A stretch of 64,000 nucleotides of DNA, taken from Burkholderiaceae bacterium. GTDB lineage: Bacteria; Pseudomonadota; Gammaproteobacteria; Burkholderiales; Burkholderiaceae_E. Location of the stretch: contig JAHBZV010000010.1 in the NCBI GenBank assembly GCA_019635275.1, forward strand, positions 1-64,000. Reading direction: 5' to 3'. Positions 40,137 through 53,384 of the stretch are shown in pieces. The position numbers and the translations under genes are program-made. The notes under the pieces were generated by a model, which ran no database searches, had not been told where the DNA came from, and saw nothing but the letters and a program-made list of their open reading frames with translations. Position 1 is the stretch's first letter. The number at the start of each line of letters is the position of its first letter.

Positions 40137-41158
40137 GCGGGCGCCGCCCCGACGCGACGCGGCGCGCGCTGCTGCAGGCGACCGCGGCCTTGGCGGGCGG
40201 CGTCGTGGCGCTGCCGCGGTGCGCGCTGTCCACCGACGCCGATCGCCCTGCCTCCGGCCGGCGCTTCGCGTTCGCACTGATCGGCGACGCACCCTATGGC
40301 GCGCTCGAGGCCCAGTGGCTCGCGCGGCTGTACGCCGACTTCGATCGCGACATCGCATTCGCGATCCACGTGGGCGACATCAAGGCGGGCTGGGAGCGTT
40401 GCGACGACGCGCTGCTCGCCGCGCGCCACGCGCTGCTCGACGCCTGCCCGGTGCCGCTGGTCTACGTGCCGGGCGACAACGAATGGACCGATTGCGCGCG
40501 CTCGCGCGCCGGCGGCTTCGATCCGCTCGAGCGCCTCGACTGGTTGCGCCGGCACTTCTTCGCGCAGCCCCGGCCGGTCGGTGCAGGCGCCCTGCGCGCC
40601 GCGGAGGCGCTCGCCGGCTTCGAACGCCAGGCCGACCATAGGCCCGACGGCCCACCGGAGAACCTTCGATGGCGCCACGGCGGGATCGGCTTCGTGACGC
40701 TGAACCTGCCGGGCAGCAACAACGGGCTCGCAGCCGAGGGACTCGGCGAATCCGAACTGCGGGTTCGCGAGCGCTTCAACGCCGAGTGGCTGCGCGACGC
40801 CTACGCGATCGCCGCGCGCGAGGCGCAGGCGGCGCTGGTCGTCGTCGCGCACGCGAATCCGCGCTTCGATCGCGACCGCGCCCGCCGATCCGCGCCAGGC
40901 ACGCGGCGCGACGGCTACGCCGCGTTCCGCCGCCTGTTGCGCGAATCGAGCGACGCGTTCGCCGGGCCCACGCTGTTCCTGCACGGCGATACGCACTGGC
41001 ACACGGTGCAGGCGATCTCGCCGAAGCTCGTGCGGGTCGAGGCGCACGGGTCGCCGTTCGTCGACCAGTGGGTGCGCATCGACGTCGATGCCGATGCGCA
41101 TCAGCCGTTCTCGCTCGTCAGCCGGCGGATCGCCGCGGCGCAGCCGACGCCGCCGTAG
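40133..41158 (+). CDS. exported calcineurin-like phosphoesterase
   Basis: A 341-residue metallophosphoesterase with a twin-arginine-like signal ([15 protein letters not shown] near residues 9-23). Metal motifs are [22 protein letters not shown], a His in VVAHANP and HGDTHWH. Substrates of this group are unknown. It overlaps mutS by 4 nt (ATGA), so it may be transcribed with it. Its last 41 nt overlap, antisense, the end of ctaA. Confidence 0.85.
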
Positions 41159-42167
41159 CGCTGCCTGCGACGGCGGCCAGCGCGACGGCCAGCAGCGCGG
41201 CAACCGCGTTGTGCAGCGTGGTCGTCAGCAGCGGCTGCGTGCCCAGTGCCGTGCCTGCCCCGAGCACCAGCTGCGCCGCCACCAGCAGCGCCAGCCACGC
41301 GGCCACCGCGGGACGCGCGGCGCGCAACCGCAGCGCCAGCATCGCGACCGCGATCGCGAGCAGCAGCCCGACCAAGCGGTGCGCCACGTGCAGCCCCTGC
41401 GCCGCTGCGCCATCGACGGCAACCGTCGCACGCGTCGGATCGATTGCCGCGACGTCGAAGCGCGCGCCGCTGGCGCACAGCGGCGTCGCGCAGGCGTCGA
41501 TCGCGTGCCGCGCGCCGATCATCGTGCCGCCCCACGCGAGCAGGCCGACCAGCGCGAGCGCGGTGACGGCCACGCCGCGCGCGCCGGGCGGCACGCCACG
41601 TCCGCCACGAGCGGCCGCGATCCACGCCAGCGCCACCGCCAGCAGCAGGCCGCCGACGAGATTGCCGAGCGTGACCAGCGGCAGGTCGTGCGGCGTGTAG
41701 CGCCCCAGCCACGACAGGAACACCGTGTCGACGAGCGCGACGGCCGCGGCGATTCGCGCACCGCCACCCATCGACGACCAGCCGAACACGACGACCAGCA
41801 GCACCAGCACGCCGGCCAGCGTCGCGCTGACACGGTGCAGCGCCCGCGCAATGCGTACCGGCGGCGGCGCGTCGACCGACGGCACGTTGGCGATCGTCGC
41901 GACCGCCGCGTCGAGCGCACCGCGCTCGCGCGGACCGGCCTGCCCGGACGGCTCGACGGCCTGTGCCCCCGCCGCGTCGGTCGCCCCCGCCGCGCCGATC
42001 GGCGCGGAAGCGCCGGAGGCGGCCGGCGCGCCGGACGCGTGCGCCGCGCGGTAGCAGTCGGGCCAACCGTCGCAGCCGACGCCGTTGCCCCAGTGGCGGA
42101 TGAACGCGCTGGACGCCGTGATGCAGACCGTGAGCAGGCAGGCGACGAGCGCCAGCGAGCGGATCAT
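41118..42167 (-). CDS. ctaA: heme A synthase, CtaA/Cox15 family
   Basis: Converts heme O to heme A in the cytoplasmic membrane, by oxidising a methyl group. The 349-residue protein has about eight membrane helices, the periplasmic Cys pair (VGCDGWPDC near the N-terminus) and the conserved His in ALHRVSATLAG, YTPHDLPLVTLGN, HVAHRLVGLLLAI and TLHNAVAALL. There is an unusual Gly/Ala-rich insert of about 60 residues after the first Cys pair (ASGAPAASGASAPIGAAGA). It is the last gene of the leftward respiratory cluster and overlaps the previous gene by 4 nt. CtaB is in the same cluster, so heme O to A conversion is fully encoded. Confidence 0.9.
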   Translation of the reverse strand: MIRSLALVACLLTVCITASSAFIRHWGNGVGCDGWPDCYRAAHASGAPAASGASAPIGAAGATDAAGAQAVEPSGQAGPRERGALDAAVATIANVPSVDAPPPVRIARALHRVSATLAGVLVLLVVVFGWSSMGGGARIAAAVALVDTVFLSWLGRYTPHDLPLVTLGNLVGGLLLAVALAWIAAARGGRGVPPGARGVAVTALALVGLLAWGGTMIGARHAIDACATPLCASGARFDVAAIDPTRATVAVDGAAAQGLHVAHRLVGLLLAIAVAMLALRLRAARPAVAAWLALLVAAQLVLGAGTALGTQPLLTTTLHNAVAALLAVALAAVAGSATAASAAPRRSAG

Positions 42168-43585
42168 CGGGCGCGCCTCGCGGCGACGACGCTGTCGAGC
42201 ACGACCCAGACGAACAGCACGCCGCCGACGATCGCCAGCAGCCCGCCGAAGCCCATCAGGCCCATGCCGAACACCTCCTGCGTGCTGCGCAGCGTCTGCT
42301 CGGCGCCGGCGACCTTGCGCTGCACGCCGTAGCCGCCCGACCACATCAGGCCGAGGATGTGCAGCAACTGCCCGCCGCCGTAGATCCAGGGCTGCCAGTT
42401 CGCGATCCGGCCGGTGGCCTCGCGATAGCCCAGGCGCGGCAGCAGCGCGTAGGCCAGCCCCATCAGCGCCAGTGTCACGCCGACGATCGAGCCGTGATAA
42501 TGCGCGGGCACGCGCACGTCCGATCCCTCGATCAGGAAGCCGAGCACGCCGCCCGTCGAGAACAGCAGCAGCGACGCGATCAGCGACGCGCGCAGCGGTC
42601 GCGTCGCGGGCGTCGACGCGACGCGACGCGCGAGCGCGACCGCCAGCGCCAGCACCATCGGGAGGATCGCGAGTCCGCCGCCGAAGCGCATCAGCCAGGT
42701 CATCATCTTGCGGTGCTCGACCGACGGCACGCTCCAGTTCAGGTAGATGAGCGGCGCGGCGAACACCGACACGAGACCGATCGCGTAGACCAGCACGACG
42801 ACGCGCGGGCTCAGCGGCAGCGGCGAACCCACGAGCGTCGCCAGCCAGGCCCACGCCACCAGCATCAGCAGCGTCCAGGTGAACTGGATCACGTGCCCCG
42901 GCCCCCAGAACAGCAGCTCGTAGTAGGTGCGCGCGTCGAGCTCGCGCGGCACGTCGGCCGCGGACCACACCAGCGCCATCAGCGCGACGGCGCTCGAGAC
43001 CGCCGCCGCCTTCAGGCCGAAGCGCAGCGCGTCGGCGCCGTCGAGCTGCAGGCTCATCCGGGCCGGTGCCACGAACGAACGCAGCGTGAGCAGCAGGAAC
43101 CCCACGCCGAACACGACCAGCCCGTACAGGAACGTGTCGTTGTCGAGCACCGGCACGTAGTTCGACATCACCGGCGTCGCCGCCCCGGTGAACGGCGCAA
43201 CCGCCATGAACAGCGTGCCGAGGCCGGTGACCCACAGCGCAAGCCACCCGAGCCAGAGCGAGCGCGGCGAGGTGTCGATCGTCCACAGCATGCCCGCCAT
43301 CGACACGAACCAGACCAGCACCGAGAGGTCGACGTGCACCACGAGCGCGACCCGGAAGAAGTCGCCCGCCGGGACCAGGTTGGCGAAGAACGGCGTTCGC
43401 GCGAGCACCAGCAGGATCGAGAACACGCCGGCGCCGATCAGCGCCGCCACCCCGAGCAGCAGCCACCCGGCGGCGATCGAACGCTGCTCGGTCGTGGGAA
43501 CGGCGACGTCGAATCGATCGTCGCGGGCGCGCGCCGGCGCGCCGGCGATCTGGCGGGGCAAGCCCGCGGTCGGTGCGCCGCTCAT
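42164..43585 (-). CDS. divergent heme-copper oxidoreductase subunit I-like protein
   Basis: A 473-residue membrane protein with about twelve hydrophobic segments. It keeps heme-copper landmarks: an early His in LVVHVDLSVLVWF (His84), FWGPGHVIQF (His211 at the CuB helix VI position), EHRKMM (Glu270-His271 where oxygen reductases have His-His) and RVPAHYHGSIVG (His342, His344). No Tyr follows His211 in the usual place. It therefore looks like a relative of cbb3/NOR-type subunits with an altered copper site, or a heme-only membrane protein. It overlaps both neighbours (ATGA) in the cluster. Function is unknown; calling it an oxidase would be unsafe. Confidence 0.75.
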   Translation of the reverse strand: MSGAPTAGLPRQIAGAPARARDDRFDVAVPTTEQRSIAAGWLLLGVAALIGAGVFSILLVLARTPFFANLVPAGDFFRVALVVHVDLSVLVWFVSMAGMLWTIDTSPRSLWLGWLALWVTGLGTLFMAVAPFTGAATPVMSNYVPVLDNDTFLYGLVVFGVGFLLLTLRSFVAPARMSLQLDGADALRFGLKAAAVSSAVALMALVWSAADVPRELDARTYYELLFWGPGHVIQFTWTLLMLVAWAWLATLVGSPLPLSPRVVVLVYAIGLVSVFAAPLIYLNWSVPSVEHRKMMTWLMRFGGGLAILPMVLALAVALARRVASTPATRPLRASLIASLLLFSTGGVLGFLIEGSDVRVPAHYHGSIVGVTLALMGLAYALLPRLGYREATGRIANWQPWIYGGGQLLHILGLMWSGGYGVQRKVAGAEQTLRSTQEVFGMGLMGFGGLLAIVGGVLFVWVVLDSVVAARRAR

Positions 43586-44088
43586 CGGATCACCACCCCA
43601 CCCTGGTCGGGGATGAAGTCGATCAGCACGACCTGCCCCGGCACGACCGTCAGCCGCCGCTCGCCTTCGTGGTTGAAGCCCTTGACGCGGACGTCGTCGT
43701 TGAACTGCACGCGCAGCTGGTGATCGCCGGCCGCGATGGGCAGGCGTCGATAGCCGCTGGCCGCGCCGTCGCGCCGCAGCCCCGCGGGCTGGAACGTCTC
43801 GTCGTAGAGCACCTTGCCGTCGAGCTCGACGCGCACGTGCACCGGCGAGCGCTCGCGCGGGCAGTCCATCTGCGCGCGCAACTGGGGCGGCAGCTTGGCA
43901 AGCTCCTCGGCCGTGCGCGCGCGGCAGTCGGTCGCGAACTCGCCCGGGTGCCGGAACGACAGGCGCAGCAGCGCGTCGTCCGGCGCGAGGTGCTGGTACG
44001 CCGGCGCAGTCGAGAAGTAGCCGATGAACGCGGCGAACAGCAGGTACAGGATTCCCTGTCCACCGTACCGCAGCAGCGCGTTAGCCAT
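43582..44088 (-). CDS. single-helix membrane-anchored protein of the respiratory cluster
   Basis: Not recognised at family level. The 168-residue product has one membrane helix near the N-terminus (YGGQGILYLLFAAFIGYF), then a soluble, probably periplasmic beta-rich domain with two Cys (ATDCRAR, QMDCPRE), PVHVRVELDGKVLYDETFQPAG and RRLTVVPGQVVLIDF. It looks like a small accessory subunit that could cap or assemble the complex. It overlaps the cytochrome b fusion gene by 8 nt and the divergent subunit I gene by 4 nt, so translation is coupled. Confidence 0.75.
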   Translation of the reverse strand: MANALLRYGGQGILYLLFAAFIGYFSTAPAYQHLAPDDALLRLSFRHPGEFATDCRARTAEELAKLPPQLRAQMDCPRERSPVHVRVELDGKVLYDETFQPAGLRRDGAASGYRRLPIAAGDHQLRVQFNDDVRVKGFNHEGERRLTVVPGQVVLIDFIPDQGGVVIR

Positions 44089-45670
44089 GTCCGTGTTCTC
44101 CGAGTGTGCGCCGGCGATCGTCGCCGGCCTTCGATGCCAACCCCGCCGCGGCGAGCCGCGACCCGAACGCCTCGATCCCTGCGTCGAGCGCAGCGCCGTC
44201 CTCGCGGCCGGCAGGGATCACCATGACCCGCGCGCGATCGACGGCGCGGCGCAGGCGCGGCTCGCGACTGCCCGCGATCCGTTCGATGGTCCATCGTACC
44301 CCGAAGCGGTACTCGCAATCCCCCATCGCGCACGTGGCCACGACGACGCCGGCGGCGCCGGCACGCAGCCCGTATTCGACGAACGAAGGCGGCAGCATCC
44401 CGGCGCACGGCAACTCGAAGTCCAGCACCCCGACGCGCCCGGCCGGCCGGGCGCCATGCCGGCACGAGAACACCAGCGTCGCCCCGGCGGCGCCCGGTTG
44501 CCGCAACGCGGCCTCGATCTCGTCGCGCAACACGCCCACCGTCAGGCCCGGGAGGTCGATGCCGCTCACCAGCCGCACGCCCGGCCGGAACGGCACCGCC
44601 GATGGGCACGAACCCGCGCAGATCCCGCACGACGCGCATCGATCGTCGTCGACGACGGCGATCTCGCCCTCGCCTCCGGGATGCGGCGCCATCGCGATCG
44701 CGGCGAACGGGCAGTCGGCGAAACAGATGCGGCACCCGTTGCAGTGCTGCGGATCGACCCTCGCCGGCGCCGGCCGCGCGCGGCCGCCGAGCCAGGGCGC
44801 CACGCCGAGCAACAGCGTGAGACCGACGCTCGCGACCCAGACGGCGGCCGGGGAGGTCGCGTAGATCGCCGGCAGCGGCGCCAGGTAGAACCAGTCGATC
44901 GGCAGCGATGCGGGCAGCCGCTGCAGGTCGGCGGGCGGCTCCGAGACCGCGGGCATCGCAAGCGACAGCGCGAGCATCGCACCGAGGCTCCACAACGCCA
45001 CGGCGCGGCTCGCGCCGGTCTGCGGCTGGGTGAGCCGCTGCACGTGCGCCCACATGAGCAGCAACAGCACCAGCGGCACGCCGATGTGCAGGAACACCAC
45101 CAGCGAGAACAGCCGGTCGGAGACCGCTCCTGCGGCGATGAAGTTGCGCACCAGCGCGGGGCCGAAGCCGGGCAAGGCGCCGAACCACTCGGTCGTCGCC
45201 GTGGCGACGAACAGCGCCACGGTGTCCCAGACCATCCAGTAGCCGATCACGCCCGCCGCGACGGCCAGCCACAGCGTCGGCACGCCGCTCACCCACGAGT
45301 ACCAGCGAAAGCCTCGGAAGCGCCCGAGCATCAGCTCGCGCAGCAGGTGCAGCACGATCACGGCGACGAACGCGTCCGACGCGTAGCGGTGCAGGCTGCG
45401 CATCACGCCGCCCGCCCACCACTGGCCGTGCGTCAGCGCCTCGACCGACGCGTGCGCGCCGTCCACGCTGGTGTCGTAGAAGACGTACAGGTAGCCGCCC
45501 GTGAGCGCGATCAGCCAGAACAGGTAGAAGCCCAGCCCGCCCAACTGGCGCAGCGGGTTATCGGGCTCGCCGCAGATCCGGTCGAGCCCGTGCTCGAACG
45601 CTCGCCAGGCGCGCGCGGCGCGAGCGCCTCGCGGCGGCTCGACGGGCCTCTGGGACAGGAACACGGACAT
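44081..45670 (-). CDS. cytochrome b / 2x[4Fe-4S] ferredoxin / MvhD-like fusion protein
   Basis: A 529-residue fusion. Residues 1-290 form a cytochrome b-like membrane domain with heme-ligand His94 (RSLHRYASDA), His108, His195 (LHIGVP) and His209. Next is a two-cluster ferredoxin: Cys310, 313, 316, 320 (CNGCRICFADC) and Cys345, 348, 351, 355 (CASCGICAGSC). The C-terminal part (about 370-480) resembles the MvhD [2Fe-2S] hydrogenase subunit, with Cys403, 422, 447 and 452 (ELPCAGML, VATCAMGDCEY). It could carry electrons between a soluble Fe-S donor and membrane heme. The gap to the Sco gene upstream is 47 nt. The partner is unknown. Confidence 0.85.
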   Translation of the reverse strand: MSVFLSQRPVEPPRGARAARAWRAFEHGLDRICGEPDNPLRQLGGLGFYLFWLIALTGGYLYVFYDTSVDGAHASVEALTHGQWWAGGVMRSLHRYASDAFVAVIVLHLLRELMLGRFRGFRWYSWVSGVPTLWLAVAAGVIGYWMVWDTVALFVATATTEWFGALPGFGPALVRNFIAAGAVSDRLFSLVVFLHIGVPLVLLLLMWAHVQRLTQPQTGASRAVALWSLGAMLALSLAMPAVSEPPADLQRLPASLPIDWFYLAPLPAIYATSPAAVWVASVGLTLLLGVAPWLGGRARPAPARVDPQHCNGCRICFADCPFAAIAMAPHPGGEGEIAVVDDDRCASCGICAGSCPSAVPFRPGVRLVSGIDLPGLTVGVLRDEIEAALRQPGAAGATLVFSCRHGARPAGRVGVLDFELPCAGMLPPSFVEYGLRAGAAGVVVATCAMGDCEYRFGVRWTIERIAGSREPRLRRAVDRARVMVIPAGREDGAALDAGIEAFGSRLAAAGLASKAGDDRRRTLGEHGHG

Positions 45671-45717: not shown

Positions 45718-46590
45718 TCAGGCGCGCGTCGACCGCCGCAGCTCCCGCATCACCACCCAGGCGATCGCGCCCAGCGTCGTCAGTCCGGCGAAGATCTCGA
45801 AGAACAACGAGTAGTTGACCCGGTACCCGCCCGTCTGCGGATCGTACACGGTGCAGTACAGGATGACCTTCTCCCACAGGTTCTCGAGGGATGCGTGCTG
45901 CGAGGCCTGCCCCGACAGCAGTTCCTTCAGCGGCTGGACCAGCATCGGCAGGTCGAAGTTCTCGCCATAGACCTGCCGATAGATCACGCCGTCGGCGTCG
46001 ACGATCGTCACCTGCGTGACGTGGTCGAAGCCCTTCGGCGTCGCCTCGTAGGTGAAGCCGAGGTTGGCGGTCAGCGCCTCGACCTGCGTCGGGTCCGGGC
46101 TCAGGAAGTCCCAGCCGCGCTCGTCGATCTTGTTCTGGCGCTTGAAGGCCGCCATCGCCGCCGGACTGTCGAAGGGCTGGTTGAAGCCGATCGACACCAC
46201 CGCGAACTTTCCGTCGCCGAGCGCCTTGCGCGCCTCGCGCACCGCTTGGGCCAGGAACTGCGTGGCGACCGGGCACGCCTGGAAGCAGCCGGTGTAGACC
46301 AGGCTGATCAGCAGCGGCCGGCCGCGGTAGTCGCCGAACCGCACGTCCTTGCCGGTGCTGTCGCGCAGCCGCACGTCGACGAGCGGGCGGCCGATCGCCG
46401 CCTGGCTGGTCGCGATCACCTTGCGATAGTCGGGTGCGCGGTTCGCGCCGTCCGCCGGCGTGCCGTCGGCCCACGCCGGCGCGGCGGCGGCGCAGATGCC
46501 CGCCACCACGGCGCCGCTCGCCAGCACGCGCCGCAGAACCGGGGCGATCGACTGCAGGTGCGCGGCCAGCGACACCGCCGCCTCAGCCAC
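45718..46590 (-). CDS. SCO1/SenC-type copper chaperone
   Basis: Delivers copper to the CuA or CuB site of a heme-copper enzyme. The 290-residue protein has an N-terminal signal or anchor (about residues 20-42), the thioredoxin-like copper site TGCFQACPV (Cys-x3-Cys) and the His ligand in TPKGFDHVTQ, plus a C-terminal membrane helix (FFEIFAGLTTLGAIAWVVM). The start at 46590 overlaps the ctaB end by 8 nt. Presence of a CuA subunit in the same cluster explains the chaperone. Confidence 0.92.
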   Translation of the reverse strand: MAEAAVSLAAHLQSIAPVLRRVLASGAVVAGICAAAAPAWADGTPADGANRAPDYRKVIATSQAAIGRPLVDVRLRDSTGKDVRFGDYRGRPLLISLVYTGCFQACPVATQFLAQAVREARKALGDGKFAVVSIGFNQPFDSPAAMAAFKRQNKIDERGWDFLSPDPTQVEALTANLGFTYEATPKGFDHVTQVTIVDADGVIYRQVYGENFDLPMLVQPLKELLSGQASQHASLENLWEKVILYCTVYDPQTGGYRVNYSLFFEIFAGLTTLGAIAWVVMRELRRSTRA

Positions 46591-47449
46591 CGAGCGAGGC
46601 CCTCATCCACCCGTCGGCGATGGTCCCGAGGAGCAGCAGCGAGAGCTGGATCAGCGAGGCGTGGAAGCTCGCCAGCGCATTGGCGCGATTCGGCGCGCGT
46701 GCGAGCGTCAGCGCACGCCGGATCAGCAGCGCGCCGCCCGATGCGGCGCAGACGAAGTACAGCCAGCCGGGGCCGAGCAGCGCCAGCGCCAGCGAGAGCC
46801 CGACCATCACGACGGCGTGCCCCAGGATGGCCCAGGCTGCGTACCGATCGCCCTTGACGACCGGCAACATCGGGACGCCGGCCTCGGCGTACTCGTCGCG
46901 AAAGACGATCGACAGGCTCCAGAAGTGCGGTGGCGTCCAGAGGAACAGCACCAGCGCGAGCACCAGCGCCTCGGCGGACAAATGGGGCGAGACCGCGGCG
47001 GCCCCGGCCAGCACCGCGAAGCTGCCGGCCAGGCCCCCGATGACGATGTTCCACGCGGTGCGCCGCTTCAGCCAGACCGTGTAGACGATCGCGTAGAAGA
47101 AGGCACCGAGGAAGGTGTACAAGGCCGCGCTGGCGTTGGTGGCCAGCCACGCCGCGGCCACCGCGATGCCGGTGAGCGCCACGATCAGCGCCAGCCAGCC
47201 GCCGTGGTGGCGCATGCGCCCGCTGACGAACGGGCGCCGGCGCGTGCGCGGCATCCGCGCGTCGAGATCGACTTCGTAGAACTGGTTGAACGCGCCGGCG
47301 GCGGACGAGGACAGCAGCACCGCGAGGGTCAGGACCACGGCCTGCCAGGTCTCGATCGCGGCGCCCGGCGACACCATCAGGCCGGCCACCGCGGTCAGCG
47401 CGATCGCCACCCCGATGCGCAGCTTGAACAGGTTGAGCAACGCCTTCAT
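46583..47449 (-). CDS. ctaB: protoheme IX farnesyltransferase (heme O synthase)
   Basis: Adds farnesyl to heme B to make heme O, in the cytoplasmic membrane. The 288-residue protein has about eight helices and the prenyltransferase motif NQFYEVDLDARMPRTRRRP (about residues 55-73), with LKRRTAWNIVIGGLAGS and WTPPHFWSLSI further on. ATG at 47449 begins MKALLNLFKLRIGVA, as in the family; an in-frame upstream start at 47491 is less likely. It follows subunit I by about 75 nt and overlaps the Sco gene. Confidence 0.95.
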   Translation of the reverse strand: MKALLNLFKLRIGVAIALTAVAGLMVSPGAAIETWQAVVLTLAVLLSSSAAGAFNQFYEVDLDARMPRTRRRPFVSGRMRHHGGWLALIVALTGIAVAAAWLATNASAALYTFLGAFFYAIVYTVWLKRRTAWNIVIGGLAGSFAVLAGAAAVSPHLSAEALVLALVLFLWTPPHFWSLSIVFRDEYAEAGVPMLPVVKGDRYAAWAILGHAVVMVGLSLALALLGPGWLYFVCAASGGALLIRRALTLARAPNRANALASFHASLIQLSLLLLGTIADGWMRASLGG

Positions 47450-47524
47450 GGCCTGCCTCCATCGCCGGGCCGCACGGGGCGGCCCGGCCATGTTCGTCCG
47501 TCGCTCACGTACGCGCTCCGGGGA

Positions 47525-49231
47525 TCAGCTCAGGCCCCAGACGGTCGACAGGTACTTCCAGTTGACGAAGTAGTACAGCACGAAGGCGGCGAGGAACACC
47601 AGCGCGAACACGAAGGTGCCCGGCACGCCGAAGCCGCCGCCGTGCCCGCCGTGACCGGTGAGCGCCGCCTGCACCGGCAGGCGCAGCGGGCTGACCGTGG
47701 TCGTGTAGGCGCCGGCATCGAGGCGCTTGCCGAACAGGATCGTGCCGACCGTGATCAGGATGTACATCGCCCCGCCCACGACCGCGATCACCCCGGCGAC
47801 GCCGAAGATCGCGATCATCAGCAGCGCCGTGCCCGGATACTCGTACGGGAGCGCGGCGCCGGCGAACGTGATGTCCCAGTGCCGGCGCGGCACGCCGAGC
47901 GTTCCGGCGCCCATCATCGCCAGCGTGAACACGCCCATCCCGAGCCCGAAGATGTAGGGCTGCAGCTTCGCCCACCCCGGCAGGATCAGCTCGCGATTGA
48001 ACAGCGTCGGCAGCAGGAAGTAGGTCAGCGACATGAACGCCAGCGTCGTGCCGATCACGACCGTGGCATGGAAGTGCCCCGGCACGTAGATCGTGTTGTG
48101 GATGATCATGTTGAGCTGCTCGGTGCCCATCATGACGCCCGAGATGCCGCCGAGGAAACCGAAGCCGATCAGCGAGATGAACATGCCCGAGAACACCGGG
48201 TTGCCCCACGGCGCCTTGCGCAGCCACTCGAACAGGCCCTTGGTGTAGCCCTTCTCGCGCTGCGCCGCCTCGATCGCGCCCGGCACCGTCAGGCCGTGCA
48301 GCATCGACGCGAGCACCGCCAGGTACATCGCGTAGCTGGTATTGAAGATCTTCCACTCGGTGCCCACGGCCGGGTCGGCCAGGATGTGGTGCGCCGACGC
48401 GAGTTGCAGGAACAGGATGTACAGCAGGAACGCCGTCCGGCTCACGCGCTCCGACATCGGCTTGGCACCGAAGACGATCGCCGCGATCGCGTACCAGACC
48501 GCGATGTGCGCCGAGACGTTGATCTGCTGCGACGAGTGGCCGAAGGCCCACCAGATCACCCGGTACATCGCCGGGTCGATGTGCTTGATGTAGCCCACCG
48601 ACCACAGGAACGTCGGGATCAGGATGATCGCGCCCGAGGCGATCGTGAAGATCGCGATGATGCACGCGGTCAGTGCGCCGAACGTGACCAGCGGGATCGA
48701 GCCCTCGTAGGTCTTCTCGGCCTTGGCCACGACGAGCGTGCCCAGGAAGATGAAGCAGCCGATCAGCGCGCCCACCGCGAACAGGATCAGCCCGAGATAG
48801 AACGCGGGGTGGCCGGGCAGCGGCACGTACGAGGTCATCATCACCGTCGCGTTGCCGGTGAAGATGGCCGCGTTGAAGGTCAGCGTGCCGATCACCATCA
48901 GCGCGAACGCCAGCCACGCGAGCCTCGGCGTCGCGAGCCGGCATCGCAGCAGCGTCGACGAGCAGAAGTACAGGATCGCGATCTCGAAGAAGATGATCCA
49001 GACGACCAGCATGTCGAGGCCGTGCGCGGTCAGGAACAGATAGAAATTGTCGGCGTCGATCAGGTGGATCGCCTGCCAGCGCGTGAGCGTGATCAGCAGC
49101 GCCAGGACGCCGCCGATCAGCAGCGCGACGACGGCCGCGACCGCGTTGAGCTTGATCAGCGTCTCGGCCGACTTGTGGAACTGCAGCCCCGTGCGGGGGC
49201 AGATCCGGTATTGCGCTTCAGCGGTTGCCAT
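47525..49231 (-). CDS. heme-copper oxidoreductase subunit I, B-type-like, lacking the active-site Tyr
   Basis: A 568-residue membrane protein with about thirteen helices. Ligands visible: His70 (LTAHGLDML) for the low-spin heme, His232 (FGHSSQQ) and His281-His282 (SAHHILAD) for CuB, and His386/His388 (VPGHFHAT) for the two hemes. At the place of the cross-linked Tyr of B- and A-type oxygen reductases (GHPxVY) the sequence reads GHSSQQ, giving Gln236. Helix VII HHILADPAV also lacks the Tyr used by cbb3 enzymes. The overall pattern (HNTIYVPGHFHATVV, WWAFGHSSQQINVSAHIAVW) resembles B-type or NO reductase-like members. A CuA subunit II follows immediately upstream. Confidence 0.9.
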   Translation of the reverse strand: MATAEAQYRICPRTGLQFHKSAETLIKLNAVAAVVALLIGGVLALLITLTRWQAIHLIDADNFYLFLTAHGLDMLVVWIIFFEIAILYFCSSTLLRCRLATPRLAWLAFALMVIGTLTFNAAIFTGNATVMMTSYVPLPGHPAFYLGLILFAVGALIGCFIFLGTLVVAKAEKTYEGSIPLVTFGALTACIIAIFTIASGAIILIPTFLWSVGYIKHIDPAMYRVIWWAFGHSSQQINVSAHIAVWYAIAAIVFGAKPMSERVSRTAFLLYILFLQLASAHHILADPAVGTEWKIFNTSYAMYLAVLASMLHGLTVPGAIEAAQREKGYTKGLFEWLRKAPWGNPVFSGMFISLIGFGFLGGISGVMMGTEQLNMIIHNTIYVPGHFHATVVIGTTLAFMSLTYFLLPTLFNRELILPGWAKLQPYIFGLGMGVFTLAMMGAGTLGVPRRHWDITFAGAALPYEYPGTALLMIAIFGVAGVIAVVGGAMYILITVGTILFGKRLDAGAYTTTVSPLRLPVQAALTGHGGHGGGFGVPGTFVFALVFLAAFVLYYFVNWKYLSTVWGLS

Positions 49232-49244
49232 GTTCCTCCCCCGA

Positions 49245-49784
49245 TTACTTGACGTACAGCCGCGAGACCATCTTGTGATGGCCGATGCCGCAGAATTCGT
49301 TGCAGACGATCGCGTACTGCCCCGACCGGTTCGGCTGGATCGTCACGACGTGCTGGTAACCGGGCAGCACCTGGATGTTGATGTTCTCGGGCTGCAGCGA
49401 AAAGCCGTGCTGGTAGTCCATCGAGCTCAGGTTCAGGCGGTAGGTCTTGCCCTTCTCGAGCTCGAGGATCGGCCACCAGTCCCACAGGCGGGCGATCAGG
49501 TAGATGTCGCTGCCTGCCGGCGGCGCGACCACGGGAACCTTGTTCTCGCCTTCGGTGCGCACCGTGTACTTGTCGACCATCTCCTGCGTGGCCTTGGCGA
49601 ACAGCTCGGGCTTGACCTTGTAGGTTTCAGGCGAGAGGTTCTGCTTACCGTACACGTGCCAGTACGGCATCATGAAGAACATGATCATGCACCAGACGAA
49701 GGCGATCACGATCCATAGGATCTCGACCCTGTCGACCGGCTGCTTCCACCAGATCCGATGCTGCGGGGGCAGTATCGCGCTCAT
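49245..49784 (-). CDS. CuA-containing subunit II of a heme-copper oxidoreductase
   Basis: Takes electrons from a soluble cytochrome c or cupredoxin and passes them to subunit I. The 179-residue protein has one membrane helix (about residues 22-42, ILWIVIAFVWCMIMFFM) and a periplasmic cupredoxin domain with the complete CuA ligand set: His in DYQHGFSLQ and Cys, Cys, His, Met in VCNEFCGIGHHKM. The short single-helix form is typical of B-type (ba3-like) enzymes. It lies 13 nt before the subunit I start and 21 nt after the small membrane peptide. Confidence 0.93.
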   Translation of the reverse strand: MSAILPPQHRIWWKQPVDRVEILWIVIAFVWCMIMFFMMPYWHVYGKQNLSPETYKVKPELFAKATQEMVDKYTVRTEGENKVPVVAPPAGSDIYLIARLWDWWPILELEKGKTYRLNLSSMDYQHGFSLQPENINIQVLPGYQHVVTIQPNRSGQYAIVCNEFCGIGHHKMVSRLYVK

Positions 49785-49805
49785 CGTCGTTCTCCTCGTG
49801 AACGC

Positions 49806-49985
49806 TTACTTGGCCAGCGGCGTGACGGGGACGGTGGCGATCTCCATCACGCCCCACAGGATGTAGAACACCGTCGGAACCGTGATGCCCAGGAACAGCA
49901 GCAGGAAGGGGTTGTCGAGAATCTGCTGCATGACGGGTACGCGTTCTTCCTTTTGTTCGGCCTGCGATTGAGCTTGGTCAGCCAT
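49806..49985 (-). CDS. 59-aa single-helix subunit at the head of the cluster
   Basis: A 59-residue protein with a charged N-terminus (MADQAQSQAEQKEERVPVMQ) and one membrane helix (FLLLFLGITVPTVFYILWGV). Size, position and charge fit a small accessory subunit such as the IIa-like peptides of B-type heme-copper enzymes. ATG 49985 is preceded by GGGGAG; a longer in-frame reading upstream is not supported. It is the first gene after the FNR-like box on the leftward strand. Confidence 0.8.
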   Translation of the reverse strand: MADQAQSQAEQKEERVPVMQQILDNPFLLLFLGITVPTVFYILWGVMEIATVPVTPLAK

Positions 49986-50056: not shown

Positions 50057-50070
50057 TTGACTCGCATCAA
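50057..50070. promoter_or_regulatory. FNR/Anr/Dnr-type box between the divergent respiratory operons
   Basis: TTGACTCGCATCAA matches the TTGAT-N4-ATCAA consensus with one mismatch. It lies in the 257-nt gap between the leftward heme-copper operon and the rightward cytochrome b fusion. A CATGAT -10-like hexamer on the minus strand (50028-50033) would place the box near -41.5, a class II activation position, for the leftward operon. Confidence 0.6.
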
Positions 50071-50242: not shown

Positions 50243-52159
50243 TTGCTCAAGAGACTCCAGGCCCTGCTGCAGTGGTTCTTCCTCCGGATGGAAGCCGTCG
50301 GCAACCGGGTGTTCGGCGACCGGCTCAATCCGATGTACTACCTGGGGGCGACCAGTTACTGGATGTTCTGGATCGTGGTCGCCAGCGGCCTGTACGTGTA
50401 CGCGTTCTACGAGACCGGCATCGACAAGACCTACGCGTCGATGGAGTCGATCACCCACGGGCAGTGGTTCGCGGGGGGCATCCTGCGCAGCGTGCACCGC
50501 TACGCCTCCGACGCGATGGTGCTCACGATGCTGCTGCACATGGCGCGGCACTTCGCCTTCGACCGATACCGGGGGTTTCGCGCGTTCTCGTGGGTCACCG
50601 GCGTGATCGTGCTGTGGCTCGTCTACGCGTCCGGGGTCAACGGCTTCATGCTGCCCTGGGACAAGCTCGCGCAGTTCGTCGTCATCGGCACGACCGAGTG
50701 GCTCGATGCGCTGCCGGTGTTCCGCGGCATCCTGACGCGCAACTTCATCACGCCCGAGGCGATCACCGACCGCCTGTTCTCGCTGCTGTCGTTCCTGCAC
50801 ATCGGCATCCCGCTGGTCGTGATGCTGGCGTTGTGGATCCACACGCAGCGCGTGCCGCGGGCCTCGCAGATGCCGCCGCGCCGCCTCGCCTACGGGCTGG
50901 TCGGCATGCTGCTCGTGCTCGCGCTGGTCAAGCCGGTGGTGAGCCAGGCGCCGGCCGATTTCGGCACGGTGCCGGCGCGACTGGACTTCGACTGGTTCTA
51001 CCTGACGGTCTTTCCGCTGATCTACTCTTGGGACCCGCTGAAGTTGTGGCTCGCCGTCGGGGGAGCCACGTTGTTGCTGATGGCGATGCCCTGGCTGCCT
51101 CCCGCGCGCAGTGGGCGGGGCAAGGCCTACCACCTCGTCGCGCACCCCGGGCGCCAGGGTGCGCCGGTGCGCGCGGGCGAAACCCTGCTCGACGCCGGGC
51201 TGCGCGCCGGCATCGCGCTGCCCTACGAGTGCCGCTCCGGCGGTTGCGGGGTGTGCAAGGCGACGATGATCGGTGGCGAAGTCGAGATGTCGGGCTACCA
51301 GCCGAGTGCGCTGTCCGAGGACGAGCGCCGCGCGGGCCGCATCCTGCTGTGCTGCGCGCGCGCGCTGTCCGACGTCGAGTTCGAGTACGAGGAGAACGCC
51401 GCCGCGCGCGGCACGCAGGTCGACACTTACGAGGCGCGCGTCGAGCGGCTCGACCGGCTGGCGCACGACGTGATGCTGGTCGCGCTGCGCCTGCCCGAAG
51501 GCCGGAGCATCGCCTTCGAGGCCGGGCAGTACCTGAACGTCGTGCTCGAGGACGGCTCGCGCCGCAGCTACTCGTTCACCACGCCCTCCGGGGCCACCGA
51601 CCTCGTCGAGCTGCACGTGCGCCTGATGCCCGGCGGCCGCTTCACGACCCGCGTGTTCGAGTCGATGAAGGTCGGCGACCCGATCACGTTCGAAGGGCCG
51701 GTCGGCTCGTTCGTGCTGCATGAGCCCAGCGACAAGCCGCTGATCTTCGTCGCCGGGGCGACCGGCTTCGCGCCGGTCAAGAGCCTGCTCGAACAGGCGT
51801 TCCGGATGGGCATCGAGCGGCCACTCTATCTGTACTGGGGCGTGCGCCGGCTGCGCGACCTGTACCTGACCGACCTGCCGCGGCAGTGGGAGCGCGAGCA
51901 CCCGAACTTCCACTTCGTGCCGGTGCTCTCCGAGCCGGCGCCCGAAGACGGCTGGAGCGGCCGCACCGGGCTCGTCCACGAGGCGATCCTCGCCGACTTC
52001 CCCGACCTGTCCGGATTCTCGGTCTATGCCTGCGGTTCGGTGCGCATGGTCGAGGCGGCGCGGCCGGCGTTCGTCTCGCAGGGCCTGCACGAGGACGCCT
52101 GCTACTCCGACGCGTTCACGCCGGCAGCGGGCGCGGCACCGGCTGCGGCGCGGCCATAG
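50243..52159 (+). CDS. cytochrome b / [2Fe-2S] ferredoxin / FAD-NAD(P) reductase fusion
   Basis: A 638-residue three-part redox protein. Residues 1-285 are a cytochrome b-like membrane domain with His85 (RSVHRYASD), His99, His186 and His200, clearly related to the b domain of the leftward fusion. Residues 295-385 are a plant-type [2Fe-2S] ferredoxin (Cys330, 335, 338, 370; CRSGGCGVCK). The rest is a ferredoxin-NADP reductase-type module with RRSYSFTTP (FAD), GATGFAPVKSLL (NAD(P)) and VYACGSVRMVEAA. It should pass electrons from NAD(P)H to heme b, or the reverse. The start is TTG 50243 with a GGAGAG site 8 nt upstream. It is divergent from the heme-copper operon. Confidence 0.88.
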   Translation: MLKRLQALLQWFFLRMEAVGNRVFGDRLNPMYYLGATSYWMFWIVVASGLYVYAFYETGIDKTYASMESITHGQWFAGGILRSVHRYASDAMVLTMLLHMARHFAFDRYRGFRAFSWVTGVIVLWLVYASGVNGFMLPWDKLAQFVVIGTTEWLDALPVFRGILTRNFITPEAITDRLFSLLSFLHIGIPLVVMLALWIHTQRVPRASQMPPRRLAYGLVGMLLVLALVKPVVSQAPADFGTVPARLDFDWFYLTVFPLIYSWDPLKLWLAVGGATLLLMAMPWLPPARSGRGKAYHLVAHPGRQGAPVRAGETLLDAGLRAGIALPYECRSGGCGVCKATMIGGEVEMSGYQPSALSEDERRAGRILLCCARALSDVEFEYEENAAARGTQVDTYEARVERLDRLAHDVMLVALRLPEGRSIAFEAGQYLNVVLEDGSRRSYSFTTPSGATDLVELHVRLMPGGRFTTRVFESMKVGDPITFEGPVGSFVLHEPSDKPLIFVAGATGFAPVKSLLEQAFRMGIERPLYLYWGVRRLRDLYLTDLPRQWEREHPNFHFVPVLSEPAPEDGWSGRTGLVHEAILADFPDLSGFSVYACGSVRMVEAARPAFVSQGLHEDACYSDAFTPAAGAAPAAARP

Positions 52160-52187
52160 CCCGCGCCCTCGTTCCGAAAGTCGGCCG

Positions 52188-53384
52188 ATGTCCGCCGCCG
52201 GCCCGTCGATGCGCCATCCGGTCGAGGCGCCCGCGAATCCGGCGAAGCGCCGCGCGCGCGGGCCGCTGGGGAGCGTCGGCGTCGCACGCTTCATGCGCGA
52301 CTACTGGCAGCGCCGGCCGCTGCTGGTGCGACAGGCATTTCCTGCGCTGCAGGCGCCGCTGGACCCCGACGCGCTGGTTGCGCTCGCTGCTCGTGACGAT
52401 GTCGAGTCGCGCCTCGTGAGCGCCTTCGGCGGACGCTGGCGACTTCGTCACGGCCCCTTCGAAGCGGGCGACGTGCCGAGCCTGCGCAGGCGGCGCTGGA
52501 CGCTGCTGGTGCAGGGCGTCGACCTGCACGACGAGCGCGCGCACGCGCTGCTCGAGCGCTTTCGCTTCGTGCCCGATGCGCGGCTCGACGACCTGATGAT
52601 CAGCCTCGCCTCCGACGCCGGCGGCGTCGGCCCTCACGTCGATTCATACGACGTGTTCCTCGTTCAGGCCTGGGGGCAACGACGCTGGCGAATCGGCTGG
52701 CCGGCGTCGCGCGAGCTCGTCGCCGGACTGCCGCTGAAGGTGCTGGCCCGCTTCGAGCCGCAGCACGAATTCGTGCTCGAACCCGGCGACATGCTGTACC
52801 TGCCGCCGGGATGGGCCCACGACGGAATCGCCGAGGGCCCTTGCATGACCTGCTCGATCGGCTTTCGTGCGCCCTCGCGCCACGAGTTCCTGTCGGCGTT
52901 TCTCGCCGACGCGGCCGAATCGCCGGCGGGCCCCGATCCGCGCTTCGGCGACGCCGGCCGCCGCCCCGTATCCCGGCCGGCGCAGGTGCCCGAAGACCTG
53001 CGCAGGCAACTCGCGCGCTGGGCGCACGGCTGGCGCCCCGGCTCCGCGAGGCTCGACGACTTCATCGGCCGCTTCCTCACCGAACCGAAGCCGCAGGTGT
53101 GGTTCGAGCGCGCGCCGGCGATGAACGCGACACGGTTCGCCGCGCGGGCGGCGCGGGTCGGGCTCGAGCTCGACCGGCGCACCCGGATCGCGTATCGGCG
53201 CCAGCAGGTGTTCGTCAACGGCGAACGGTTCGACGCCACCGGGGCCAACGCCTGGCTACGGGCGTTAGCGGATCGTCGGCGTCTCGATCCGGCGAACACC
53301 GCGCGCGCACTCGCCGAACCCCGGTGCGCCGCGCTGTTGCTCGAATGGCACGAAGCAGGCTGGCTGCACCTGTCGGAATTCTGA
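52188..53384 (+). CDS. JmjC-like cupin 2-oxoglutarate oxygenase, ribosomal RoxA/YcfD type
   Basis: Homologues hydroxylate an arginine of ribosomal protein L16 using Fe(II) and 2-oxoglutarate. The 398-residue protein has the Fe motif HVDSYDVFLVQAWGQRRW (His and Asp) and the distal His in PPGWAHDGIA, with EPGDMLYLPPG before it. The N-terminal FMRDYWQRRPLLVRQAF is diagnostic of the group. ATG 52188 is selected for family length. It follows the cytochrome b fusion by 28 nt but functionally belongs to translation, so the pairing may be incidental. Confidence 0.92.
   Translation: MSAAGPSMRHPVEAPANPAKRRARGPLGSVGVARFMRDYWQRRPLLVRQAFPALQAPLDPDALVALAARDDVESRLVSAFGGRWRLRHGPFEAGDVPSLRRRRWTLLVQGVDLHDERAHALLERFRFVPDARLDDLMISLASDAGGVGPHVDSYDVFLVQAWGQRRWRIGWPASRELVAGLPLKVLARFEPQHEFVLEPGDMLYLPPGWAHDGIAEGPCMTCSIGFRAPSRHEFLSAFLADAAESPAGPDPRFGDAGRRPVSRPAQVPEDLRRQLARWAHGWRPGSARLDDFIGRFLTEPKPQVWFERAPAMNATRFAARAARVGLELDRRTRIAYRRQQVFVNGERFDATGANAWLRALADRRRLDPANTARALAEPRCAALLLEWHEAGWLHLSEF

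Follow-up and report, generated by a model that had tools for sequence, protein, structure and literature searches.

Heme-copper reductases in which the active-site tyrosine is missing and the metal ligands are retained raise two questions: which gas is reduced, and has the type been described before? Such a protein is encoded at positions 47525..49985 of the window, i.e., the whole 64,000-nucleotide stretch of Burkholderiaceae DNA analysed here. An earlier note on this DNA had proposed that it is an unrecognised nitric oxide reductase. The explanation that we favour, with a probability of roughly 0.85, is that the locus encodes a CuA-containing NO reductase of the eNOR type, predicted to be expressed at low oxygen or in response to NO via an FNR/DNR-type regulator.

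Subunit I and the residue at the tyrosine position

The catalytic subunit is encoded by the following gene:

47525..49231, minus strand: subunit I (eNOR), 568 amino acids (PF00115, 226 bits)

By homology to the B-type enzymes, His70 and His388 would coordinate the low-spin heme, His386 the high-spin heme, and His232, His281 and His282 the CuB ion. The earlier note had listed all six His residues as retained; they are indeed present, and are invariant in an alignment of 14 rows that includes the window protein. It had also reported that the strings GHSSQQ and HHILAD leave the protein with neither of the known cross-linked tyrosines, and this reading holds as well. The sequence includes GHSSQQ followed by AHHILAD, and upon alignment to solved enzymes Gln236 falls on the active-site Tyr of the B-type oxygen reductases, i.e., no Tyr was found at the helix VI position (GHPxxY). 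The active-site Tyr of the C-type (cbb3) enzymes is located in helix VII, 6 residues before the HH pair. The CcoN-like protein of the same genome has a Tyr at this distance, and the corresponding residue in subunit I is Leu275.

The set of relatives used here consists of the best 80 of 565 confirmed loci from one genome scan, and eNOR members beyond these 80 were sampled in separate sets only. Within the best 80, QQ is found at the Tyr position in every locus (HSSQQ in 77, HSAQQ in 2, and HPSQQ in 1), the HH and HFH motifs are each conserved in 80/80, and no in-frame stop was found in any. Because QQ is present in all 80 loci and stops in none, GHSSQQ cannot be put down to an error in sequencing or to gene decay. 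Gln is also present at this position in aligned homologs from Thermus, Thermomicrobium and Defluviimonas. In two subunit I sequences of the Gln type from Thermus thermophilus plasmids (L137 and L139), HFK is read where the others have HFH, and the low-spin heme His appears to be replaced by Lys.

Two other tyrosines are conserved in the Gln group. Tyr300 is invariant (NTSY in 80/80 of the best 80 of 565 relatives), while its position is occupied by Phe, Leu or Asn in the aligned Tyr-type rows; it may be near the active site. Tyr271 is likewise invariant in the Gln group and is not Tyr in the Tyr-type rows.

Subunit II, the small subunit and a possible proton path

Two further genes complete the region:

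49245..49784, minus strand: subunit II (eNOR) with a CuA domain (COX2/CoxB), 179 amino acids, directly upstream of subunit I
49806..49985, minus strand: small subunit (orfX), 59 amino acids from the ATG at 49985, with one hydrophobic stretch

The full CuA site previously ascribed to subunit II is confirmed, with H126, C161, C165, H169, and M172 identical in 84/84 aligned rows, and the predicted CuA-dependent entry of electrons fits this subunit. Glu21 of subunit II is invariant in the same 84 rows. The end point of the earlier note, 49985, corresponds to the likely start of the third, 59-residue subunit: its listed open frame begins at 50057, and the ATG at 49985 is the likely start codon. A homolog of this small subunit precedes subunit II in 80/80 loci (best 80 of 565).

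In subunit I, Tyr247, Ser309 and His312 are invariant in the 13 Gln rows of the alignment, and position 315 is either Thr or Ser. The position of Ser309 is Ser or Thr in oxygen reductases, and the position of the K-path Thr is taken by His312 in 13/13 Gln rows. If the K-path residues play the roles that we presume for them in the ba3 enzymes, eNOR probably has a K-like proton path.

Placement among the heme-copper reductases

The residue at the Tyr position has been tabulated by type: Tyr in oxygen reductases, Glu in cNOR and qNOR, Asn in sNOR and CuANOR, Asp in gNOR, and Gln in eNOR (PMC8756737, Table A4). The last type is reported from Alpha-, Beta-, Gamma- and Deltaproteobacteria (PMC8756737), is counted among the biochemically characterised NORs, with NO reduction placed in microoxic conditions (PMC11388526), and has already been published for Gallionellaceae and Zetaproteobacteria (PMC10734462, PMC8114936). 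A further family has been named nNOR (PMC11388526, PMC12569097).

In a tree of 38 rows, subunit I and 12 other Gln rows (from Proteobacteria, Thermus and Thermomicrobium) form one group with support of 96/95. The nine Tyr-bearing B-type rows, including the solved Aquifex and Thermus ba3 chains, group separately (88/89), and the three A-type rows are also apart from the Gln clade. The check that had been suggested earlier, whether the protein falls within an oxygen-reductase clade, therefore places it in the Gln clade. The solved structures closest to subunit I are ba3 oxygen reductases; all 31 matched chains are oxidases (31/31), and no NorB, the cNOR/qNOR type with an active-site Glu, was found among them.

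On the sequence evidence, the protein is a member of the eNOR family, which has already been described; this membership rests on the residue rule together with the Thermus and Thermomicrobium proxies, because the comparison lacked the eNOR sequences of Rhodothermus marinus and of archaea. The R. marinus enzyme is reportedly a characterised eNOR. Two Haloarcula plasmid homologs considered as archaeal eNORs were ruled out, as both read GHPVVY. Of the earlier proposal, the assignment as an NO reductase is supported by family and context, while the word "unrecognised" is not, Gln being the published mark of eNOR (PMC8756737).

With the eNOR family as found in Chloroflexi, Halobacteria and Proteobacteria, the locus shares a B-type-related subunit I with Gln and a cupredoxin subunit II encoded directly upstream, whereas the cluster described below adds S2, p168 and two cytochrome b fusions, none of which we found described. 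The B-type (ba3) reductases of Thermus thermophilus and Aquifex have in common with it the family, the six His residues, the CuA subunit and several K-path-like residues, but differ in that here Gln stands for Tyr, His312 occupies the K-path Thr position, and the clade is separate. Both sNOR (NorSY-SenC of ammonia oxidisers) and bNOR/CuANOR likewise have a Tyr-less, B-type-related subunit I, and the sNOR operon includes SenC, as here; in contrast, these enzymes have Asn where the window protein has Gln. The cNOR and qNOR enzymes share the proposed function and the company of NirS and of FNR/DNR-type boxes, although they belong to another subfamily with FeB and Glu, and no cytochrome c or quinol-fusion subunit is present here.

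Upstream box, gene neighbours and co-occurrence with denitrification genes

The FNR-like box that had been claimed upstream of these genes was located as follows:

50057..50070, no strand assigned: FNR/DNR-type box TTGACTCGCATCAA, the sole TTGA-N6-TCAA in the 64-kb window

The claim gains weight from the recurrence of the box. When the region from -300 to +30 of the small-subunit start was searched in the best 80 of 565 relatives (one was dropped, its upstream sequence missing), a box of the same form was found in 39/79 loci versus 1.7 expected; in the other 40/79, the strict form was not found. Within the fetched flanks of the best 80 of 565 loci, a NirS-like protein (scoring >350 bits against one NirS) is encoded in at least 18/80, a Crp/Fnr regulator in at least 24/80, and a member of the NnrS group, typed by one member, in at least 6/80; these are lower bounds because the flanks vary in length. 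Two Thermus plasmid homologs adjoin genes for Rrf2 and DUF542 proteins, and one of them is also near a cytochrome P460 gene.

Among 61 related genomes, NirS (best match of at least 340 bits) was found in 16/19 with eNOR and in 8/42 others, counting one genome with only split pieces of NirS (G029) among the 16 and one with only an eNOR fragment (G004) among the 19. Outside the window's own genus, the corresponding figures are 4/4 and 7/39. NosZ, in full or as large pieces, is present in 12/19 genomes with eNOR versus 8/42 without. Of the genomes with NirS, 7/16 bearing eNOR and 1/8 lacking it yielded neither cNOR nor qNOR; in this tally, divergent NorB-like matches count as NOR and NO dismutase-like proteins do not, and two of the seven genomes (G004 and G029) are less than 85% complete. 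None of these counts are independent, because the genomes are related by descent. A point against the association is that NirS was not found in the window's own genome, which is 86.8% complete and has a full NosZ but only weak matches to the NirK model.

The same genome also encodes, outside the window (G000:C75:24940-27645; L216, match L005:1501-2832), a qNOR-like protein that shares two hallmarks with putative NO dismutases, namely a metal-binding His changed to Asn (GISHN) and a nearby Glu changed to Gln (PMC3413370). Proteins of this type occur in 8/17 other genomes of the genus with 81-98% identity, one of them split over contigs with the Gln unseen. NO dismutases of Burkholderiales have already been published (PMC13386854).

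The conserved gene cluster

The genes at 47525..49985 belong to a larger conserved cluster, which includes:

41118..42167, minus strand: CtaA/COX15-like heme A synthase (PF02628, 46 bits, a weak partial match)
42164..43585, minus strand: S2, a second COX1-family protein (PF00115)
43582..44088, minus strand: p168, a conserved protein with no Pfam or NCBIfam match
44081..45670, minus strand: b6-like cytochrome b (His94/108 and His195/209) with two [4Fe-4S] motifs and an FlpD/HdrA-like domain
45718..46590, minus strand: SCO1/SenC-like protein, a probable copper chaperone (PF02630, 40 bits)
46583..47491, minus strand: heme O synthase (CyoE/CtaB; TIGR01473, 263 bits)
50243..52159, plus strand (divergent gene): b6-like cytochrome b (His85/99 and His186/200) with [2Fe-2S], FAD and NAD(P)H-binding domains

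Two H-x13-H pairs are kept in both cytochrome b parts. The CtaA-like gene overlaps the end of S2, and its product has no NCBIfam match. Using score cut-offs, we surveyed the 53 loci with enough flank among the best 80 of 565. The small subunit, subunit II, SCO and p168 were each present in all 53, the cytochrome b-FeS protein and S2 each in 50, CyoE in 46, the cytochrome b-reductase in 44, and a CtaA of the window type in 14. In 30/80 loci (best 80 of 565), a gene of the CtaA type, which comprises two groups with one member of each typed by Pfam, has its start or end no more than 300 nt upstream of the match to the small subunit. A version on an alphaproteobacterial plasmid consists of the first part of the cluster plus a hemerythrin; S2 was not found in the sequence retrieved for it. 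In the window, the cytochrome b-reductase gene is directly followed by a gene for a JmjC/ROXA-like cupin protein (52161-53384, plus strand). The cluster is present in Castellaniella defragrans DSM 12141, where CyoE and the FeS fusion are missing from the vicinity, in Acidovorax sp. 210-6, where it is more complete, and in Zeimonas arvi.

S2, a second COX1-family protein

The most novel part of the cluster is S2. The window protein keeps the heme-type residues His84, His362 and His364 and the CuB-type His231, and has Phe235 at the Tyr position. The CuB His-His pair of subunit I corresponds to Ile280-Tyr281, so that two of the three CuB His are lost. Among 58 S2 rows from eNOR clusters, His84, 231, 362, 364 and 409 are kept in all (58/58), while the first His of the pair is found in 0/58 and the second position carries Tyr in 57 rows and His in a single row. 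All of 29 further S2 rows from Pseudomonadota likewise have these five His, with the first His of the pair occurring in 0/29 and the second in 19/29. Judged by these residues, the copper site of S2 is incomplete in every case, with the greatest loss in the eNOR clusters; a description of S2 as CuB-less throughout was ruled out by the 19/29 rows outside eNOR clusters in which the second His is retained.

In the 38-row tree, the S2 rows group together with 100/100 support; their stem is long and joins the Gln clade on a common branch (96/93), a tie that is less sure because the branches are long. The NorB of cNOR, which had been considered on account of length, was ruled out by this shared branch and by the missing His-His pair. 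Another divergent COX1-family protein, L145 (G046:C46:14517-15911), with FHNMHY, YH for HH, and GYFHF, is possibly another ligand-altered homolog according to these motifs; it lies on a long branch of the tree and was left unclassified. Among family models, S2 matches PF00115 only, with no NCBIfam match up to an E value of 0.1, and no solved chain matches it up to an E value of 1.

A survey of 398 Pseudomonadota genomes, with two genomes dropped and an E value of up to 1e-15 taken as presence, revealed S2 in 30/31 genomes bearing eNOR, and S2 without eNOR in 28. Outside the window's genome, a CtaA gene is found no more than 150 nt from S2 in 12/37 places, some of the 37 being cut by contig ends. 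Heme A synthase CtaA requires O2 (PMC9145763). S2 may have a role in heme A supply or assembly, and an exchange of electrons with CtaA would be a guess. We would tentatively suggest, as a rather improbable idea, that S2 represents an undescribed class of heme-copper oxidase homologs with a broken copper site that serve heme A-type reductases, either by holding or delivering heme A or by exchanging electrons with CtaA. No description of S2 was found in the literature on eNOR and heme A synthase or on CuB-less homologs, the key eNOR paper lying outside this search.

Proposed function and alternative explanations

The enzyme most likely converts toxic NO to nitrous oxide, a prediction that is supported because of the regulation suggested by the box, the NirS-like neighbours, and the co-occurrence with NirS. 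In the proposed mechanism, a cytochrome c or a cupredoxin would donate electrons to CuA of subunit II, from which they would pass to the low-spin heme and then to the pair of high-spin heme and CuB, where two NO molecules would be reduced to N2O. Gln236 replaces the cross-linked Tyr, and the site would therefore be without the residue that oxygen reductases use to split O2. Protons would probably be taken from the cytoplasm by the K-like path consisting of Glu21 of subunit II and Tyr247, Ser309, His312 and Thr315 of subunit I. The A-type heme would be provided by CyoE and CtaA, and copper by SCO, while the two cytochrome b fusions may supply electrons that stem from NAD(P)H or from other sources.

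FNR boxes also control microaerobic oxidases. The box of the window would thus suit an enzyme that is mainly a high-affinity oxygen reductase in which another residue, or none, replaces the Tyr. The ba3 oxygen reductases among the closest solved structures point the same way, as do Tyr271 and Tyr300, which are invariant in the Gln group and replaced by other residues in the Tyr-type rows. For the B-type sNOR of Nitrosomonas, a possible role as terminal oxidase was argued in a study from 2020 (PMC6967387). We consider this unlikely in view of the missing Tyr at both the helix VI and the C-type helix VII positions, the company of NirS, and the listing of eNOR as a characterised NO reductase (PMC11388526). 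Some O2 turnover is nevertheless possible, because B-type enzymes can reduce both gases (PMC6967387). An eNOR that reduces mainly NO but also O2 where oxic and anoxic zones meet overlaps with our preferred reading and is compatible with it. Such a dual activity is suggested by the B-type ancestry, by the presence in the cluster of heme A synthase, an O2-requiring enzyme (PMC9145763), and by the reduction of NO by eNOR in microoxic conditions (PMC11388526); the loss of the Tyr in subunit I argues against it, and we regard it as possible, if the less probable outcome.

Membership in another Tyr-less family, i.e., sNOR, bNOR/CuANOR or gNOR, would also account for several features of the locus. 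A cupredoxin subunit II is predicted for sNOR and gNOR too (PMC8756737), and the SenC gene, on account of which sNOR was first considered, is found here as in norSY-senC (PMC4940428). Neither the Asn of sNOR and bNOR (CuANOR) nor the Asp of gNOR (PMC8756737, Table A4) is found at the Tyr position, however, which in subunit I is Gln236; sNOR was ruled out on this basis, and these families together are a very improbable source of the protein. The eNOR-type NO reductase remains the reading that we prefer.

Implications

The eNORs are reportedly often annotated as cytochrome c oxidases (PMC8756737), as are the plasmid relatives of subunit I, and the capacity to form N2O is for this reason overlooked in genome surveys. 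The function of eNOR is testable in the named strains that bear the cluster. It is the conserved cluster, and S2 above all, that deserves attention. S2 poses a question of its own, namely which function a heme-copper homolog with an incomplete copper site has next to heme A synthesis. If the role suggested for S2 were true, S2 would enable denitrifiers to assemble an eNOR complex linked to NADH, together with the two cytochrome b fusions, and to feed it under oxygen scarcity.
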